Origin: a virus
Virus record (IMG/VR): IMGVR_UViG_3300036900_000166
Coordinates: 1 to 56,613 of that record
Length of the DNA stretch: 56,613 bases
Direction: 5' to 3' (one strand)
Position numbers and translations under genes: made by a program. Below the pieces are notes generated by a model. The model was not told the origin of the DNA. It worked only from the letters and a program-made list of their open reading frames with translations, and made no database searches. Below, in pieces: positions 3,860 through 13,060 of the stretch (the first letter of the stretch is position 1; every line of letters begins with the position of its first letter).

Positions 3860-4236
3860 AAACCACCGCTCTTTGGTCACTAACGGCCCTCTGTGGCGTT
3901 GTGGGCGTGGGGGTGTGGTCATTTGGTGGGTGGACCCGTCTCGGTGCCACCTTGACCCCAATACGCATCACCAAGACCGTTTGGGTTACCAATGAGGTGT
4001 CGCGTGGTTCAAGTCCGTGGTCAGAACCGCTTAAACCACTGGATAATCCGGGTGCATCCGATGACGGATTTTACACCCGATCCGATGGTCACCGATTCCC
4101 AATCAACTCGCACTTGACCAATCCTGTTCACGTTAAATCCGGTGATGCGATTATTTTTACCAACAACATGCTTGTCACCAACGTTTATTTTAACATCGGG
4201 GCATACCGCCATGCGTGGGCGGTCACAAACCTGTGA
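3856..4236 (+). CDS. Membrane-anchored protein (126 aa)
   Basis: An N-terminal hydrophobic segment (LCGVVGVGVWSFGGW, about residues 9-26) looks like a signal anchor, followed by a soluble beta-rich domain with Asn/Thr-rich strands. I chose the TTG at 3856 because it overlaps the upstream stop (TTGA) and has a GGAAGGTGG ribosome-binding site; a GTG at 3808 would add 16 residues. Last gene before the long non-coding tract. Confidence 0.5.
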   Translation: MKTTALWSLTALCGVVGVGVWSFGGWTRLGATLTPIRITKTVWVTNEVSRGSSPWSEPLKPLDNPGASDDGFYTRSDGHRFPINSHLTNPVHVKSGDAIIFTNNMLVTNVYFNIGAYRHAWAVTNL

Positions 4237-4982
4237 TGCGGGCTTGACGACAAAACGGTAACGATATAGATTTTTTCAGAATGACATCTCTGGTTGTCAA
4301 CCGAAGATCCTTGTTTGGTGGGTGGGGAGAGCCAAGACTCTCCACCAGAGCCGCCCACCAAACAGGGATTTTCCATGTACAGCTCATCGATGTCTCCAAG
4401 ACGGTCTTGGTCCATAGGTGAGCCGGAACATGGTCGGCCCACCTTTGGGTGGTGCTGGCGTTAGCGGTGGCTGCTCTGAGCCAGAACTGAGCACTCGAAG
4501 CACCCACCGAACGAAAGGTAAAAGGTGTGTCCTTTGAATGGTGGAGTTGCGACGGGGCAGATACCCCTCTAACCAAGTGCCTGCCAAAAGAGCGGATGGT
4601 TACCGACGATCCAGACCGGCTCCACTATTCAGAGGATACCACTTTTCCCTTTCTTCTCACTTTAGGGGCGGCAACTCACACATGAGGCGCTGCGCGGTAA
4701 TGCCCCACTTTTCTTGCGGAGGGGGGTTCTTTGTTTTCTGCTCTTCTTTCCCTTTTACTTTCCCTCTGATTCAGGATCTGTACCTGAACAGGATCAGCGG
4801 TGGATCAGGCACCGCTTGAGACAATTTACAACCTTGCGTGGGCACTTGTCACAAAGACCCTTGATGGTCTGACGCAGTTGCCACTTCCTTTGTTTGGAAA
4901 CATTCAGGTGCGTGAACTGGTCTTGAATCTGGGGACGCATTCCGCTTGACTTTGGTGGATCTGTTTTCACACTGCAACAGAA
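4237..4982 (+). ncRNA. Candidate large structured non-coding RNA (746 nt)
   Basis: No convincing frame exists here on either strand, unlike the rest of this dense genome. Inverted repeats crowd the tract: a 14-bp stem 4309-4322/4354-4367 enclosing 4326-4331/4338-4343; 4396-4401/4405-4410; nested 4452-4456/4490-4494 and 4468-4472/4479-4483; nested 4504-4508/4540-4544 and 4521-4525/4531-4535; 4570-4574/4598-4602; 4665-4669/4702-4706 enclosing 4675-4678/4683-4686; nested 4766-4770/4793-4797 and 4771-4775/4783-4787; 4797-4802/4810-4815; 4835-4839/4872-4876 enclosing 4855-4859/4866-4870. The loop at 4332-4337 can pair with 4405-4410 as a pseudoknot. A promoter-like sequence stands at the left edge. 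Phages are known to carry large ornate RNAs of this size (GOLLD, ROOL); I cannot assign this one. A packaging site is another possibility. Confidence 0.4.
4244..4270 (+). promoter_or_regulatory. Possible promoter for the non-coding tract
   Basis: TTGACG (4244-4249) is followed after 15 bp by TATAGA (4265-4270, 5/6 to TATAAT). The spacing is short, but the position at the left edge of the gene-free tract and just after a stop codon fits a dedicated promoter for a non-coding transcript. Confidence 0.35.
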
Positions 4983-5183
4983 ATGACCTCAAGAGTTGGA
5001 GACTGGAAAATGACCGATGACGGTACTGTCGTGTGCATAGCAGAGGGAGATGGATACGTGATGTACCGAAACAAGAGCAGGTTTCCCAAGGTGATGGAAG
5101 TCCGACTTTGGGATGAATCTATGGACACTTCTCAAATTATTGGTTTTGAGATCGACCCGAAACCCAACCCTCCAAAACCCTAA
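4983..5183 (+). CDS. Hypothetical protein upstream of terminase (66 aa)
   Basis: Small beta-rich protein ending in a Pro/Lys tail (PKPNPPKP), with its stop directly abutting the terminase ATG (TAAATG). The position before the large terminase is usual for a small terminase subunit, but the sequence is too short and has no visible DNA-binding domain. An ATG at 5010 with GGAG upstream is an alternative start. Confidence 0.5.
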   Translation: MTSRVGDWKMTDDGTVVCIAEGDGYVMYRNKSRFPKVMEVRLWDESMDTSQIIGFEIDPKPNPPKP

Positions 5184-6980
5184 ATGGCCTTCGTTAAATA
5201 CGGCGTGGAGTGGGATGACGGGATTAGCCCGGTGGAGATTGAACGACGCTGTATCCAGAAAGGGGGACAGTGGAAGTGGGACAATGGTGCGGTGGCCGGC
5301 CTTGGACTGTTCCAACACTTTAAGAACATGGAAAGCCTCCTGTGGCCCGAGGATGATCATCATCGTTGGTCAGACCTAATCCTCTCCAACATACTTGAGA
5401 ATCGAATAACGGTGGTTTGCGGGTGCCGTGATTCTTCCAAGACCAGAACCGTATCAAAGTGGGCGCTCTGTGATTATTGGTGTTGGCCCCAGGAAACCTT
5501 AATCCTCATGACCAGCACCACGGCTCAAGGACTTGAGATGCGGGTATTCGGAGACATTAAAAGCCTCTTTGCAAGGGCCAAGGAACGCTTTGAATTTCTG
5601 GAAGGCAATGTGGTGGACGCCAAAAAGGGGATCTTCACCGACAACATTTTGAACAATGATGATGTGCGCGACATGCGTAAAGGGATCGTCGGAATCCCCA
5701 CGATGACTTCAGAGGGAGAATATCAAGGAATGGCCTTAAAGAACTTTGCTGGTATTAAACAGAAACGGCGTCGTTTAATCGGTGACGAACTCCAGTTCAT
5801 TTCCTGTGATTACCTGAAGGTTTTGGATTCAATGGATAAGGGTGAGTTCAGAGGGGTGTTCCTGGGAAACATGATTGCCGACAACGGAAAAGCTCTTGAT
5901 CGGGTGGCTGAGCCGGTGAACGGGTGGACTGCCATTGATGATGCTCCCAAGACCAAGACATGGAAAAACAAGTACAACGGGATAACGATTAACCTGTGTG
6001 GTCCAGACTCACCCAACTTCGACGAAGAAACCAAAGACCGTTTTCCTTACCTGCTCTCCCAATCCGACATCAATTCAGTAGCAGCAAGGCCCGGAGGAAA
6101 GGATACTGTGGAGTGGTGGTCGCAGATCATGGGGCTGCGTAAAACCGGGGTCGTCTCAGATCGTGTGCTAACCATCGACATGATCCAGAATAACGGAGGC
6201 TTCAAAGACGTTATATGGGACCAACAACCCACAATGAAGATTTGCGGGGTGGACGCCGGGTATGGGGGCGATGATTGCGTCAACACGTACATTGAATGTG
6301 GGACAGAAGTCGGCGGCGTCAACGTCATCAAGTTCATCGAACAAAAGGTGATTCCGGTGATGATTAGTCTTCCTATTTCACCAGAGGATCAAATTGCTCT
6401 GGCGACCAAGCAGGATTGTGATGCTCGGGGAATACCCTACGAGAACGTGTACATCGAAGCAGGTATGCGAGCGACCTTGGCGGTTTCCTTCGGAAGAATT
6501 CTAAGCCCTTCCATCAATGCGATTAACTTTGGTGGTTCGGCGACCGATAGACCTGTGTCCAACGACCTGTTCATCTTCGACGAGAAAACCCAACAGAGAA
6601 GGCTCAAGAAATGCCATGAACATTACAGCAAGTTTGTTTCCGAACTGGCGTTCTCTGTGCGTGCGGTCGTCGAATCGGGACAGGCGAGGACCTTTCCCCA
6701 ACCCGCCGCTGAAGAATTTCAAAAGAGAAAGTGGACCTTCGTTTACGGAGACCGTTATGAACTGGAATCTAAGGTTGACTACAAGGAGCGAAACCAGAGC
6801 AAATCCCCAAACTGCTCTGATTCGGTTATGGTGGCTGTCGAGGGAGCACGGCGCTTGGGCTTCGCCATCGAACGACTCAAAGACCCAAACGCTGTCGAGC
6901 CCGACCAAACCGACTGGCTGGAAGAAGAAATTATGAAAGAGAGAAAGTTTGCACGACAGAACGAACTGACCTACGACTGA
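5184..6980 (+). CDS. terL: Terminase large subunit (598 aa)
   Basis: This is the packaging ATPase and nuclease that drives DNA into the prohead through the portal and cuts it. The ATPase half shows a Walker A-like loop GCRDSSKT at residues 80-87 and a Walker B-like RRLIGDELQF near residue 200. The RNase H-like nuclease half has acidic motifs: GVDAGYGGDD near 353-362, YIEAG near 420 and CSDSV near 550. Length is normal for large terminases. The Walker A loop is unusual in having SSKT where GK[ST] is usual, a form found in some phage terminases. Followed after 3 bases by the next gene. Confidence 0.85.
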   Translation: MAFVKYGVEWDDGISPVEIERRCIQKGGQWKWDNGAVAGLGLFQHFKNMESLLWPEDDHHRWSDLILSNILENRITVVCGCRDSSKTRTVSKWALCDYWCWPQETLILMTSTTAQGLEMRVFGDIKSLFARAKERFEFLEGNVVDAKKGIFTDNILNNDDVRDMRKGIVGIPTMTSEGEYQGMALKNFAGIKQKRRRLIGDELQFISCDYLKVLDSMDKGEFRGVFLGNMIADNGKALDRVAEPVNGWTAIDDAPKTKTWKNKYNGITINLCGPDSPNFDEETKDRFPYLLSQSDINSVAARPGGKDTVEWWSQIMGLRKTGVVSDRVLTIDMIQNNGGFKDVIWDQQPTMKICGVDAGYGGDDCVNTYIECGTEVGGVNVIKFIEQKVIPVMISLPISPEDQIALATKQDCDARGIPYENVYIEAGMRATLAVSFGRILSPSINAINFGGSATDRPVSNDLFIFDEKTQQRRLKKCHEHYSKFVSELAFSVRAVVESGQARTFPQPAAEEFQKRKWTFVYGDRYELESKVDYKERNQSKSPNCSDSVMVAVEGARRLGFAIERLKDPNAVEPDQTDWLEEEIMKERKFARQNELTYD

Positions 6981-7661: not shown

Positions 7662-7876
7662 ACACATGCGATCAGTGCGCTCATTGGAATCGGCATCCCG
7701 TAGTCGAGGGGCTTGGTGTTTGCATGAACATCGAGGCGACATCGCGGGTTAATGCTTATTCGGGTGCTCCTTTTTCAACACACAGAGATTTTGGGTGTCC
7801 CTTCCACGAACAGCGCGAACTAACGGATGCTGAAAAAATAGCTAAGCATTTTAGAGAACAGAGATGCCATTCTTGA
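7658..7876 (+). CDS. Small Cys/His protein (72 aa)
   Basis: Cysteines spaced CDQCAHW, then single Cys near residues 22 and 47, with His residues between, resemble a small metal-binding fold. ATG at 7658 overlaps the upstream stop; the 3' end overlaps the next gene by 13 bp. Function unknown. Confidence 0.55.
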   Translation: MNTCDQCAHWNRHPVVEGLGVCMNIEATSRVNAYSGAPFSTHRDFGCPFHEQRELTDAEKIAKHFREQRCHS

Positions 7877-8574
7877 AAATCATTCTGGCGTACATCGCTG
7901 TCACGGGTGGACCCAAGACTTACGAGTATTGCGCGAGGTTCGTGGGGAGTTATCTGGCGTGCCCACCACTCGTTGAACACGAACTTGTGGTGTGCTGTAA
8001 CGGTGGGCCGTTGCCGTTTGAGACGGCTTCACTCTTTGCCCCGATTCCAAAGGTGCAGTTCTTCCCACGACGCAACGATCCGGGTTACGACATCACTGCG
8101 TATCAGGATGTGGCTGGACACTTCAGGTGCGACATGGAGGTATGTTGTGGTGAAACAATCCGGTTCCACCGGACGGGGTGGTTGAAGCGTTACGTGGAGG
8201 CGTGGAAACAACATGGACCGGGAATGTATGGAACTTTCTCCAGCAACCTGATTCGACCCCACCTGAACACGACGGGATTTTGTGTCGCACCTACGTTCTT
8301 AAAGGGCTCACCACGCCCACAGAACAAGGAACAGAGGTACGAATGGGAACACGGCAGGAATGCTTTCTGGACCAAGGTGAGTGCGTTGGGTGGAGCAACA
8401 CGACTGGTCACCTTCGATGGGTGTTACGATGTTCCACAGTGGCGTTATCCAAAGGACATCTTGTGGCGTGGAACACAAGAAAACTGTTTGATGTTCTGTT
8501 CTCATACCGACCGTTACGCCGGAGCCAGTACTGAAACAAAACTCAAGTGGTCAAAGGGAGCTGACCGAGTGTGA
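7864..8574 (+). CDS. Glycosyltransferase-like protein A (236 aa)
   Basis: The N-terminus has a Rossmann-like strand and a CNGG motif. A central region (DITAYQDVAGHFRCDMEVCCGET) occupies the place of the DxD region in GT-A enzymes, and GWLKRYVEAWKQHGPGMYG follows. The next gene encodes a clear paralogue with the same order of motifs (YDI.A.QE/D, GW..R...A...HGP, TTGF), so the two arose by tandem duplication. Family known: surface or virion sugar transfer. The specific sugar is not inferable. This copy keeps fewer acidic residues at the DxD-like site and may be non-catalytic. Confidence 0.6.
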   Translation: MPFLKIILAYIAVTGGPKTYEYCARFVGSYLACPPLVEHELVVCCNGGPLPFETASLFAPIPKVQFFPRRNDPGYDITAYQDVAGHFRCDMEVCCGETIRFHRTGWLKRYVEAWKQHGPGMYGTFSSNLIRPHLNTTGFCVAPTFLKGSPRPQNKEQRYEWEHGRNAFWTKVSALGGATRLVTFDGCYDVPQWRYPKDILWRGTQENCLMFCSHTDRYAGASTETKLKWSKGADRV

Positions 8575-9245
8575 AAATCGAAATCGTTTATGTTTATCCG
8601 AACTTTACCGGATCAGGATACAGTGCTTATGCCGAAAGGTTTTTGGGTTCGTACCTCACCAATCCACCGCTGGTTGACCACACTACGACAATCGTGTGCA
8701 ATGGTGGTGAACCCGACCTTGAAACCAAAGGGATGTTTTCACTCCTACCAGATGTCACGTACCTTGTTGGCAGCAATGCGGCGTACGACATTTCCGCTCA
8801 CCAGGAAGCCAGTGAACGGTCACAGGCCGACATGATCGTGTTCTTTGGCTCATCCTCGTACGTGCGCAAACCCGGCTGGCTCTTAAGAATGGCGTCAGCG
8901 TTCCAGAAACACGGACCCGCACAATACGGCTGCATGGGAAATCGTGGCACGGGAAACATCGCTCCACACATCAGGACCACGGGATTTTGGACTTCTCCCA
9001 AGATTTTCAATTCGTATCCTCACAGGGCCACACGACCAGAGGACCGCCACCCTTTTGAGCACGGACCAGAATGTTTCACTACGCACGTCACTCGACTTGG
9101 ACTGAAAAACTGGGTGGTCACCGCGATTGGCGATTATCTGTGGGCCGAGTGGGACAACGCTGTTGGTGGCTACCACAACAACAATCAGGAGAATTTGCTT
9201 ACCGGGGACCGGGTTTCAGAGCCGCCCTACTTCAAATGCGCCTGA
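8571..9245 (+). CDS. Glycosyltransferase-like protein B (224 aa)
   Basis: Tandem paralogue of the preceding protein. Shared landmarks are SYL.NPPLV.H near residue 30, CNGG near 44, YDISAHQEAS near 73, KPGWLLRMASAFQKHGP near 98 and RTTGFW near 128. GTG start at 8571 overlapping the previous stop. Probably a cytoplasmic GT-A-like enzyme acting with its neighbours on one glycan. The catalytic metal site is not certain by eye. Confidence 0.6.
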   Translation: MKIEIVYVYPNFTGSGYSAYAERFLGSYLTNPPLVDHTTTIVCNGGEPDLETKGMFSLLPDVTYLVGSNAAYDISAHQEASERSQADMIVFFGSSSYVRKPGWLLRMASAFQKHGPAQYGCMGNRGTGNIAPHIRTTGFWTSPKIFNSYPHRATRPEDRHPFEHGPECFTTHVTRLGLKNWVVTAIGDYLWAEWDNAVGGYHNNNQENLLTGDRVSEPPYFKCA

Positions 9246-9970
9246 ACAAAATAGCGGTGTTCTTCCACTGTCTTTTCTTTGTTGACGGCCAGTTCAGCAT
9301 CAACGCTTTCAACATTGTCTCGGAGCAGATGGAAATGCTGCGGTTGAGTGGGCTTCTGGACGAGTGCGACGAGTTGATTGTTGGTATAAACGGGGGGCAG
9401 GAAAGCTTGGAGATGGCGCGACTGGTCATTCCTTCCAAGGCCAAACTGGTGATGCACGGACTTGAATCCAAGTCGGAGAACCTGACCATCGTGGAGCTTG
9501 AACGGTGGGCACCACTACACTTGGGCTGGGACATCCTTTATTTCCACGCCAAAGGATGCACCCGAGGTGGGGACCAGAACCACTTGGATAAAGTATCTCA
9601 CCCTTGGCGACGCGCCATGATGTCGGACCTTGTGTGGAACTGGCGTTACTGCGTTTCGGAACTGGAATCGGGCTACGACATCGTGTGTTCACACTGGATG
9701 TGGAACATGGCTGACGGCACGCAGCACATTCCGGCTGGTAACTTTCTGTGGATAACCGCACGGTTCGCGGCTAACCTCCCGTCATTGTTCCTCCGATCAC
9801 AAGTCAAAACCCACGGCATCGCGGCTGCTGAAAGCCGGTGGGAAGCTGAAGTGAAGTGGGGAAACGGCAAGATTCCCAACGTGAGAGAGATTCGGCCACA
9901 CGGCGGTGACGGGGTTCCGTGGGTTAAACAGGACGGAAAACGACGGTTGGTGATGATGAATGACCCCTGA
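9236..9970 (+). CDS. Glycosyltransferase-like protein C (244 aa)
   Basis: Contains YFHAKGCT near residue 103, a run WRRAMMSDLVWNW, and HIPAGNFLWITARFAANLPS near 165, motifs I associate with a family of cell-surface sugar proteins that use an acidic/His site around YFH.KG and H..GNFWW. ATG at 9236 overlaps the previous stop by 10 bp, and the end overlaps the radical SAM gene. Third sugar-transfer type protein of the cassette; donor and acceptor unknown. Confidence 0.55.
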   Translation: MRLNKIAVFFHCLFFVDGQFSINAFNIVSEQMEMLRLSGLLDECDELIVGINGGQESLEMARLVIPSKAKLVMHGLESKSENLTIVELERWAPLHLGWDILYFHAKGCTRGGDQNHLDKVSHPWRRAMMSDLVWNWRYCVSELESGYDIVCSHWMWNMADGTQHIPAGNFLWITARFAANLPSLFLRSQVKTHGIAAAESRWEAEVKWGNGKIPNVREIRPHGGDGVPWVKQDGKRRLVMMNDP

Positions 9971-11033
9971 ACTCCAAAAGGCGTACGAGGAATCCTACCG
10001 TCCATTTGTGGAAGGTGGCGGGGCCATCACTGCCGAACAGACCAAGATGCGGTCATGGAGGTACTTTCTCGAAATCAATTCCATGTGCAACTTGAAGTGT
10101 CCCAGTTGCACTAAGGGGAATTTGGGGATCGGCTACGAGCACCTGAACGGGATCATGGATGCCGACTTAATGGAGAAGTGCATTGAGAAGATCCGCAACG
10201 AGAACAACCAAGCCATCGTGTTTCTCTACGGCAATTCTGAACCGTTCTTGCACCCACGCCTGCCAGAGTGCATTGCGATGGTGAAGAAGTACGGGCTGCG
10301 CTGTGAGATGTCCACCAACCTGAATTACCTTCAGCGTGTCGAAGAGACATTGGCCGCGCACCCCGATTTCATGATCATCAGCCTTTCAGGGTTCACTCAG
10401 GAAGTGTACGTTAAAGGTCACTCCGGGGGACAGATCGACAAGGTGAAGGCCAACATGAAGATCATCGGTGAAGCCAACGCCAAGCTTCCAATCCCGGTCA
10501 CCATCTCGGTCAATTATCACATCTACAAAGACAACGAGCACGAACTGGAATTGATGCGTGCGTACGCTTCAGAATGTGGGATTGGCCTGTTCACCTCAAC
10601 GGCACGGGCAATCAGCATGGAGAACTCTATTCAGTACGTGCGCGAGAAAGACCCCGAGGCGACACCCTACGAGGTTCAAGAAGGCCGACCCGACTGGAAT
10701 AAGCTGTTGCCTCCACCGTCACAGCAGTGGCGCGACACGATGGATCGGCTGAAGATCCCACCACAGAATGCGCGGGAGATGTACGCAAAAAACCCGGTGT
10801 CAAAGATTTGCCCGGTTGGGGCTGGTGGCATGTTCACCTTTATTCGTCACGACGGGAAGGTTTCGTTGTGCGCGTGTGTGGCCGACCGACGCATCACCAT
10901 CTCCGACGACTATCTTTCAACTAATGTTGACGAAATGGTGGAAAGGAGAGTTAATCATTCGATTTGTGCTCAGTGCTCTAAATACAAACTGAATATGTAC
11001 TACCACATCGTCGAGCGAAGCCTTTGGGATTAG
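9960..11033 (+). CDS. Radical SAM/SPASM enzyme (357 aa)
   Basis: The radical SAM 4Fe-4S motif CX3CX2C is present as C43, C47 and C50 (MCNLKCPSC). The C-terminal region has a SPASM/twitch-like set of cysteines: KICPVG, SLCACV and SICAQC near residues 280-340. The length fits SPASM-containing maturases and dehydrogenases. Such enzymes modify peptides or proteins, or epimerise or dehydrogenate sugars; the sugar-gene neighbours on both sides favour a carbohydrate substrate here, as inference. The start codon lies inside the end of the upstream gene. Confidence 0.85.
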   Translation: MTPELQKAYEESYRPFVEGGGAITAEQTKMRSWRYFLEINSMCNLKCPSCTKGNLGIGYEHLNGIMDADLMEKCIEKIRNENNQAIVFLYGNSEPFLHPRLPECIAMVKKYGLRCEMSTNLNYLQRVEETLAAHPDFMIISLSGFTQEVYVKGHSGGQIDKVKANMKIIGEANAKLPIPVTISVNYHIYKDNEHELELMRAYASECGIGLFTSTARAISMENSIQYVREKDPEATPYEVQEGRPDWNKLLPPPSQQWRDTMDRLKIPPQNAREMYAKNPVSKICPVGAGGMFTFIRHDGKVSLCACVADRRITISDDYLSTNVDEMVERRVNHSICAQCSKYKLNMYYHIVERSLWD

Positions 11034-11034
11034 C

Positions 11035-11871
11035 ATGTCAAAAATACTTTTACTTGGGAAAACAGGATATATCGGCAGCCAGTTTCACGAAGAGATTATT
11101 AAACGAGGATGGGATTACCACGCTGTCAGCCGAAAAGAGCACGATTACACCTGGAACGAGGAACTGATTCCCCTGCTTAGAAACGACATTCATTTTGTCA
11201 TCAACTGCGCCGCCTTCATACCTAAAGAATCGGTTCGGCTATGCGACAACTTTCCAGAGGAAACCATCAAGGCAAATGTGGTTTTTCCTTCAACGCTTTC
11301 AACTCTGTGCAGCCAGTTCAGCATTCCGGTGGCTCACATCTCGACAGGCTGTTTGTGGGACGACGGCCAAGAACACAATGAAGGCGACCTTCCCCAAAGA
11401 GCATTCAAGGGATATTGCGGGTTTTATGTGGGAACCAAATGGATGTCCGAACAAGAAGTCCGGAACACCAACCACAACCATTACGTGTGGAGGGTGAGGC
11501 TTCCGTTTGGTGAGGTGGACAACGATCGAAACTACCTTTCAAAACTGGTCCGATTTCCAAAGGTGTGGGACCACAACAATTCGGTGTCACACCGTGGAGA
11601 TTTTGTAAAGGCGTGCTTGGACCTGTGGCAACTTCGGGCACCATTTGGAACGTACAACGTGATGAACCCCGGTTCTGTAAGGGCGGTGGAAATCGTGGAG
11701 CAAATGCTCGACATGGGGATTATCAAGGCGATGCCGGAAATTGTCACCGGCCAACCTGGAGACTGCCAGGTCAACGTGGAGAAGATTCAAAAGGTGGGGG
11801 TAAAAATCCGTCACGTAAACGATGCGATTGCCGACGCACTCAAAAACTGGCATACAGAAACTTGTGTATAA
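11035..11871 (+). CDS. RmlD-like NAD(P)-dependent sugar reductase/epimerase (278 aa)
   Basis: Extended SDR fold: the N-terminal nucleotide loop GKTGYIG (residues 8-14) and the catalytic pair YVGTK (YxxxK) near residue 127. It is closest in outline to dTDP-4-dehydrorhamnose reductases, with a CAAF motif after the third strand and HISTGCLWD before the active site. It would finish a deoxysugar nucleotide in the cytoplasm for the adjacent transferases. Overlaps the following methyltransferase gene by 8 bp. Confidence 0.8.
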   Translation: MSKILLLGKTGYIGSQFHEEIIKRGWDYHAVSRKEHDYTWNEELIPLLRNDIHFVINCAAFIPKESVRLCDNFPEETIKANVVFPSTLSTLCSQFSIPVAHISTGCLWDDGQEHNEGDLPQRAFKGYCGFYVGTKWMSEQEVRNTNHNHYVWRVRLPFGEVDNDRNYLSKLVRFPKVWDHNNSVSHRGDFVKACLDLWQLRAPFGTYNVMNPGSVRAVEIVEQMLDMGIIKAMPEIVTGQPGDCQVNVEKIQKVGVKIRHVNDAIADALKNWHTETCV

Positions 11872-13060
11872 ACCTCACATACGCTGCCGGATCTGCTCAT
11901 CGAGAGATTTAATCGAAGTTCTGGACTTGGGCATAATGCCCTTGGCCAACGATTTTAAGGATGCCACACAGCGACGTTCAGGATACGCCCCACTCAAGCT
12001 AATGTGGTGCGACAAGTGTAACTTGGCCCAACTTTCTGCGGTTGTAGACCGGAACATCATTTACAAGAATTATCCTTACGTTACCAGCCAAAGCGAAACG
12101 ATGAAGGAGCATTTCAGGCTACTTCTGGATGATTTAATAAAAGAGTGTGAACCCGGAACTGTGGTGGAAATCGGAAGCAATGACGGGGCTTTTCTGAAGA
12201 AATGTTCAGAGTTTGGATTTAAGCGCACCCTTGGAGTCGATCCCGCTGACAACCTTTGCGACTTGGCCCACAAAAGGGGAGTTGAAACCGTCAACGAGTT
12301 TTTCAATGAAAAGACAGCAAGAGAGATTGCGAATGATGGTATCTTCCCCGACCTGATCGTGGCCCGACACGTTTTCTGTCACATCGACGATTGGCACGAA
12401 GCAATTCATTCTCTGGGAGTGCTTTCCTCCGTAAACACAGTTATTGCGATTGAGGTTCCCCACTTCCTTGAAACCGTCAAAAACGTGGAGTGGGACCAGA
12501 TCTACCACGAACACCTGTCGTTTATGACAGTCAAGGCAATGGAGCGAGCTTTGCTTCACTCGATGCTGCACATCCACGACATTAAGCACTACTCCATTCA
12601 CGGGGGTGCGATTGTGATCTTGTTGCGGCGAAATGACTGTGATGTCCCACCGCACATTACAAATATCGAGACCCTTGGACTGTCCGACCTGATGGAGTTC
12701 AAGAACAAAGCCGAATGTTTGGTGGCGGATTTGAGGAACACGGTCACCGATCTTGTAAGTCAGGGCAAAACCGTTGTTGGATACGGAGCTACGGCAAAAG
12801 CCACGCAATGGATTCAAATGTGTGGATTTACCAAGAAGCACCTCAAGCGAGTCTACGACAACACGCCCCAAAAGATTTCCAAGTTCATGCCGGGTTCAGA
12901 TATTCCTGTTGTCGATCCGCCCGCCATGTCAAAGGACCGTCCAGATTACGCGGTGTGCTTTGCGTGGAACTGGTTTTCTGAGATTCACAAGAAGGAGCAG
13001 GCATTCAAGGACAATGGTGGAAAGTGGATCGTGCCCGTTCCGGAGGTAAAAATTGTATGA
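11864..13060 (+). CDS. Sugar C-methyltransferase-like protein (398 aa)
   Basis: Three-part architecture of NDP-hexose C-methyltransferases. First an N-terminal zinc knuckle (CRIC near residue 8, CDKC near 52). Then a class I SAM fold with VVEIGSNDGAFL near residue 104. Last a C-terminal Rossmann-like domain with GKTVVGYGATAKA near 304. Known relatives methylate deoxysugars in antibiotic and O-antigen pathways. The GTG at 11864 overlaps the preceding stop; upstream in-frame ATG at 11822 is less likely. It couples directly to the portal gene (ATGA), so the sugar cassette and head genes share a transcript. Confidence 0.8.
   Translation: MYKPHIRCRICSSRDLIEVLDLGIMPLANDFKDATQRRSGYAPLKLMWCDKCNLAQLSAVVDRNIIYKNYPYVTSQSETMKEHFRLLLDDLIKECEPGTVVEIGSNDGAFLKKCSEFGFKRTLGVDPADNLCDLAHKRGVETVNEFFNEKTAREIANDGIFPDLIVARHVFCHIDDWHEAIHSLGVLSSVNTVIAIEVPHFLETVKNVEWDQIYHEHLSFMTVKAMERALLHSMLHIHDIKHYSIHGGAIVILLRRNDCDVPPHITNIETLGLSDLMEFKNKAECLVADLRNTVTDLVSQGKTVVGYGATAKATQWIQMCGFTKKHLKRVYDNTPQKISKFMPGSDIPVVDPPAMSKDRPDYAVCFAWNWFSEIHKKEQAFKDNGGKWIVPVPEVKIV

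Follow-up and report, generated by a model that had tools for sequence, protein, structure and literature searches.

What is a gene-free, heavily folded stretch of DNA doing upstream of the terminase gene of a phage? The question is raised by IMG/VR virus record IMGVR_UViG_3300036900_000166, whose full 56,613 nucleotides form the window analysed here. The two ends of this 56.6-kb phage sequence share 127 identical bases, so it was assembled as a circle, and a plus-strand gene of about 250 aa that crosses the junction from 56014 to 292, through the 127-bp end repeat, confirms the circular assembly. The phage is remote from known phages, and its terminase protein gave no tblastn match at E 1e-5 among 50,697 phage records. 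The terminase gene is uninterrupted, and no tRNA genes were found in the whole genome. Between the terminase and a 779-aa gene lies a set of sugar-type genes (9960-13057) for a radical SAM protein, an RmlD-like reductase/epimerase and a C-methyltransferase; the first of them, the radical SAM gene, is 64% identical in the relative L010. The neighbouring genes at 7864-8574 and 8571-9245 are apparently duplicates of each other, and both match a single gene pair in L010.

The first-pass annotation had described 746 nt (4237-4982) as free of genes and packed with helices. The first part of this claim holds for 4237-4799, which begins just after the stop codon, at 4236, of a 142-aa gene. We trained a codon-usage score on 20 long genes from this genome; by that score, frames here are typically non-coding on both strands and none is clearly coding, with one frame of 52 aa (4527-4685) as a borderline case. 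The claim fails for 4800-4949, which holds a probable gene of 49 aa, for which no homologue appeared in the searches made. The coding-like scores of 4800-4949 and 4983-5183 thus cut the gene-free part to about 563 nt; we found no longer stretch devoid of plausible genes in this genome. An apparent second gap of 1.2 kb, at 55.4-56.6 kb, is mostly filled by the junction-spanning gene and is unstructured.

That the tract is dense in helices was borne out by folding. The plus strand of 4237-4982 has a minimum free energy of -312 kcal/mol (z = -7.4) that no shuffle equalled, and the minus strand gives z = -3.8. Of 282 folding windows across the genome, the one at 4237 shows the most structure, and it also ranks top among about 3400 when the genomes of relatives are included. 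The helices do not, however, fill all 746 nt. Structure is concentrated in about 4277-4655 (z = -8.1 for 4276-4660, and -10.7 for 4277-4720), whereas 4656-4799 folds like its shuffles; a modest z of -3.2 belongs to 4761-4939, which overlaps the 49-aa gene. Elsewhere in the genome, the strands of 437-637 differ strongly in folding energy (-76 versus about -48 kcal/mol), yet z is only -2.1 after shuffling, which makes this contrast mostly an effect of G-rich composition. The parts of the predicted RNA and the genes that follow it are collected in Table 1.

Table 1. Predicted RNA parts and neighbouring features between the 142-aa gene and the end of the terminase gene.
Feature	Position	Strand	Evidence
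Promoter-like site, TTGACG with TATAGA at 4265 (15-nt spacer) or TAGATT at 4267 (17-nt spacer)	4244-4272	+	consensus scan 9/12
P0, possible 5' hairpin UGACA/UGUCA, loop with CUCUGGU (4288-4294)	4282-4299	+	inferred; absent from minimum-energy fold
P1, 23-pair hairpin with inner 6-pair stem	4303-4373	+	z -7.7
P2, hairpin with GUCUUGG (4404-4410)	4374-4434	+	4374-4460 z -3.6
P3, short hairpin CCCACC/GGGUGG	4433-4458	+	predicted fold; another fold pairs differently
P4, hairpin CGGUGG/CCACCG with inner stem	4465-4509	+	4461-4512 z -2.8
P5, long hairpin with 34-nt arms and branched apical domain (4547-4619)	4513-4653	+	4513-4655 z -8.5
Pyrimidine-rich spacer with one hairpin (~4667-4694); possible transcript end	4656-4799	+	z -1.1
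Probable 49-aa gene, GTG start, outside the RNA	4800-4949	+	codon score within coding range
66-aa gene directly upstream of terminase	4983-5183, alternative start 5010	+	codon score within coding range
Large terminase subunit	5184-6980	+	PHROGs phrog_2, E 1.1e-8

A strand-neutral, genome-wide search for local inverted repeats ranked P5 first and P1 second by a wide margin, so that the genome's top two lie next to each other. The stem of P5 has 28 Watson-Crick pairs, 3 G.T and no A.C, and that of P1 has 20, 3 and none. G.T mismatches pair only in plus-strand RNA, and the combined count of 6 G.T to 0 A.C therefore favours an RNA on that strand. Among the next nine inverted repeats, scattered across the genome, the counts are chance-like (10 G.T, 12 A.C). 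The bias is a small count, 6 to 0, and it agrees with the gap in folding energy between the strands; it is the sole strand-specific signature obtainable from a single sequence, and the nearest substitute for covariation.

Within P1, the apical loop of 6 nt (CCAAGA, 4332-4337) and a 7-nt bulge (ACCAGAG, 4344-4350) are unpaired, and complementarities of both to nearby segments suggest kissing contacts. A loop pseudoknot between 4332-4337 and 4405-4410 had been proposed; the complementarity exists and is in fact 7 nt long, the loop plus one neighbouring base (CCAAGAC, 4332-4338) matching GUCUUGG (4404-4410) in P2 perfectly. A second one, missing from the first-pass annotation, is equally perfect over 7 nt and would join the bulge to CUCUGGU (4288-4294) in the would-be loop of P0, a hairpin that is missing when the 5' end is folded to minimum energy. 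When the 100-nt flanks were shuffled 20,000 times, both 7-nt partners occurred together in 0.2% of cases; this test was made after the contacts had been noticed. The GUCUUGG segment is also complementary locally to a second CCAAGAC, at 4397-4403.

The promoter that had been placed at the left edge of the tract is present as a site that agrees with the consensus at 9 of 12 positions, but about 1.2 such matches are expected by chance in the region and 4 were found; as a promoter, 4244-4272 is only suggestive. Transcription from it is predicted to start near 4277. On the other side, a consensus scan of 4656-4799 found no terminator after P5, so the tract may belong to the terminase mRNA.

Terminase-guided scans of viral contigs yielded 16 relatives, with terminase identities of 32-59%. 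None of the 16 carries the RNA beside its terminase. In 15 of them the region upstream of the terminase was folded and has no counterpart of the structured tract; 444 nt there give z of -2.0 to +1.9, versus -10.7 for 4277-4720. In most relatives the neighbour of the terminase is instead a divergent gene related to this phage's 810-aa protein. Small genes take this place in L010, the relative most similar in downstream gene order, and in two others GIY-YIG endonuclease genes stand directly upstream of the terminase (L006 18-1244 and L018 9103-9924, both on the minus strand; Pfam E 5e-11 and 1.5e-7). Since the neighbours differ in this way, with GIY-YIG genes in two relatives, the junction upstream of the terminase is a variable, repeated insertion spot. 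The whole records of the larger relatives contain no sequence match and no equally structured tract, and their best-folding places are single intergenic hairpins or coding DNA. Long single intergenic hairpins, at about 4830-4950 in L023 and about 5380-5590 in L022, are among the most structured places of those genomes. In L007 (2556-4405) the terminase matches as three overlapping pieces in different frames, and these frameshifts are probably sequencing errors or decay.

Comparison with wider collections assigned the tract to no family. Rfam 15 gave no match at gathering score and none credible at E up to 10; weak matches, mostly to models of eukaryotic microRNAs, in which any long hairpin earns a score, fell far below the cut-offs. 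With blastn, phages and plasmids returned nothing, or single short chance matches, and no other copy of the tract was found in the genome, the relatives, phages or plasmids. Degenerate patterns built on the apical domain of P5 and on the kissing elements, run on viral and genome collections, matched unrelated hairpins or coding DNA. These patterns reach close copies only, and near relatives of this phage may be missing from the collections, so a missing homologue is no proof of absence. A search guided by the upstream 142-aa gene found no relatives, and scanning bacterial genomes with an alignment of terminases gave none either. With no homologue in phage, plasmid, viral-contig or genome-contig searches, the RNA would, to the extent of the collections searched, be confined to this lineage.

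The main rival to a free-standing RNA is that the tract forms a structured leader at the 5' end of the late operon, the one with the terminase, and acts in cis to control or process its mRNA, for example through stems cut by RNase III or as an attenuator where early genes give way to late ones. The tract shares its strand with the 49-aa, 66-aa and terminase genes that directly follow it, a promoter-like site lies ahead of it, and this rival is kept alive by the absence of any clear terminator from P5 to these genes. Moreover, stems of at least 23 pairs are the usual type of RNase III substrate. Relatives nevertheless express their terminase without the tract, and five hairpins with proposed tertiary contacts exceed the needs of a processing site; we regard a leader as unlikely. 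An element working at the DNA level, be it a packaging site, a replication origin or a cruciform-forming binding site, would account for the adjoining terminase, and the symmetric stems fold as single-stranded DNA on both strands too, with z of about -4. Such an element would not be expected to show the strand-specific 6 to 0 excess of G.T in both long stems. Iterons are absent, direct repeats are limited to two short pairs, and the cumulative GC skew does not turn here. The relatives must also package their DNA and lack the tract upstream of terminase. We found no evidence specifically in favour of the packaging signal that the first-pass annotation had offered as its alternative, and an element of this kind appears improbable.

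The variable spot, with its endonuclease genes in two relatives, and the long terminal inverted repeats at P5 would also suit a mobile-element remnant without present function, for instance an intron in decay or a palindrome of the MITE type. We find this quite improbable, as the stems are intact, with G.T pairs as the only exceptions, and no further copy turned up, either in this genome and its relatives or among phages and plasmids. A MITE-like palindrome is further disfavoured by the single copy and by the lack of a flanking duplication around P5 by eye, and a group I or group II intron by the lack of an Rfam match up to E 5-10 and by the uninterrupted terminase. It could finally be argued that hairpins have clustered by chance in ordinary intergenic DNA, given that only a single sequence is available and that related phages also have long intergenic hairpins (about 5400 in L022 and about 4850 in L023). 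Chance is a very improbable source of z values of -8 to -10.7, of the top rank among ~3400 windows and of two adjacent inverted repeats that are the best in the genome.

The most fitting label for the tract is that of a candidate orphan structured RNA of a phage, whose family would be new but whose kind is already known. The first-pass annotation had likened it in size to GOLLD and ROOL. Both of these have Rfam profiles, are frequently found near tRNA islands, and form RNA-only multimers via kissing loops; a studied ROOL measures 659 nt and many GOLLD exceed 800 nt (PMC12286853). Our candidate resembles them as a gene-free, elaborately folded phage RNA of several hundred nucleotides, with proposed kissing contacts and no assigned function. 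The likeness in size and identity did not hold, however, as the RNA has no match to their Rfam profiles even at E up to 10, would be shorter (~380-440 nt with a core of ~380, versus about 600-900 nt), and sits in a genome without tRNA genes. With the phi29-type pRNA it shares a loop contact in a phage RNA, here next to a packaging gene. It differs from that pRNA in having no Rfam match, in adjoining an ordinary large terminase (phrog_2), in the intramolecular nature of the proposed contacts and in having relatives with the same terminase that lack the tract. T7-type RNase III processing hairpins likewise combine long stems with a gene-block border and the transcribed strand, but each is one short hairpin, whereas here five hairpins extend over ~380 nt with proposed tertiary contacts.

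The explanation that we favour, tentatively and with a little less than even confidence, is that the tract is the gene of an accessory structured phage RNA, one that belongs to a new family and is probably transcribed on its own. Of the earlier proposal of a new large phage RNA, a structured plus-strand RNA is supported by the z-scores, the G.T bias and the loop complementarities, while the proposal as a whole rests on one sequence. We infer an RNA of about 380-440 nt that would run on the plus strand from near 4277 to a 3' end in the interval from P5 (4655) to about 4715. It would be made at the border between small early and late genes, from its own weak promoter at 4244-4272, with transcription heading for the late genes. 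P1 and P5, both long and rigid, would be joined by three shorter hairpins, and P1 would probably be clamped twice, its bulge by the loop of P0 and its apical loop by the strand in P2. The product may be a stable folded RNA acting in its own right, possibly in trans, like other accessory phage RNAs. No long complementarity to other places in the phage genome was found that might mark a trans target, which disfavours antisense control of a phage gene. Inserted cargo suits a junction as variable as this one is among the relatives, two of which have GIY-YIG genes there. It is possible, if rather doubtful, that this RNA founds a class of ~400-nt phage RNAs not described before, with a doubly kissed hairpin core and carried as independent cargo at a variable insertion spot upstream of terminase.

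Only a small number of large phage RNAs have, to our knowledge, been described, mostly with no function assigned. Phages spare little space for non-coding DNA, so that keeping about 400 nt for RNA folding suggests a worthwhile job. The sharply delimited core and the two explicit contacts make this RNA amenable to testing. Moreover, an RNA structure of such size can be confined to a single phage lineage, and hence be missed by discovery based on covariation.
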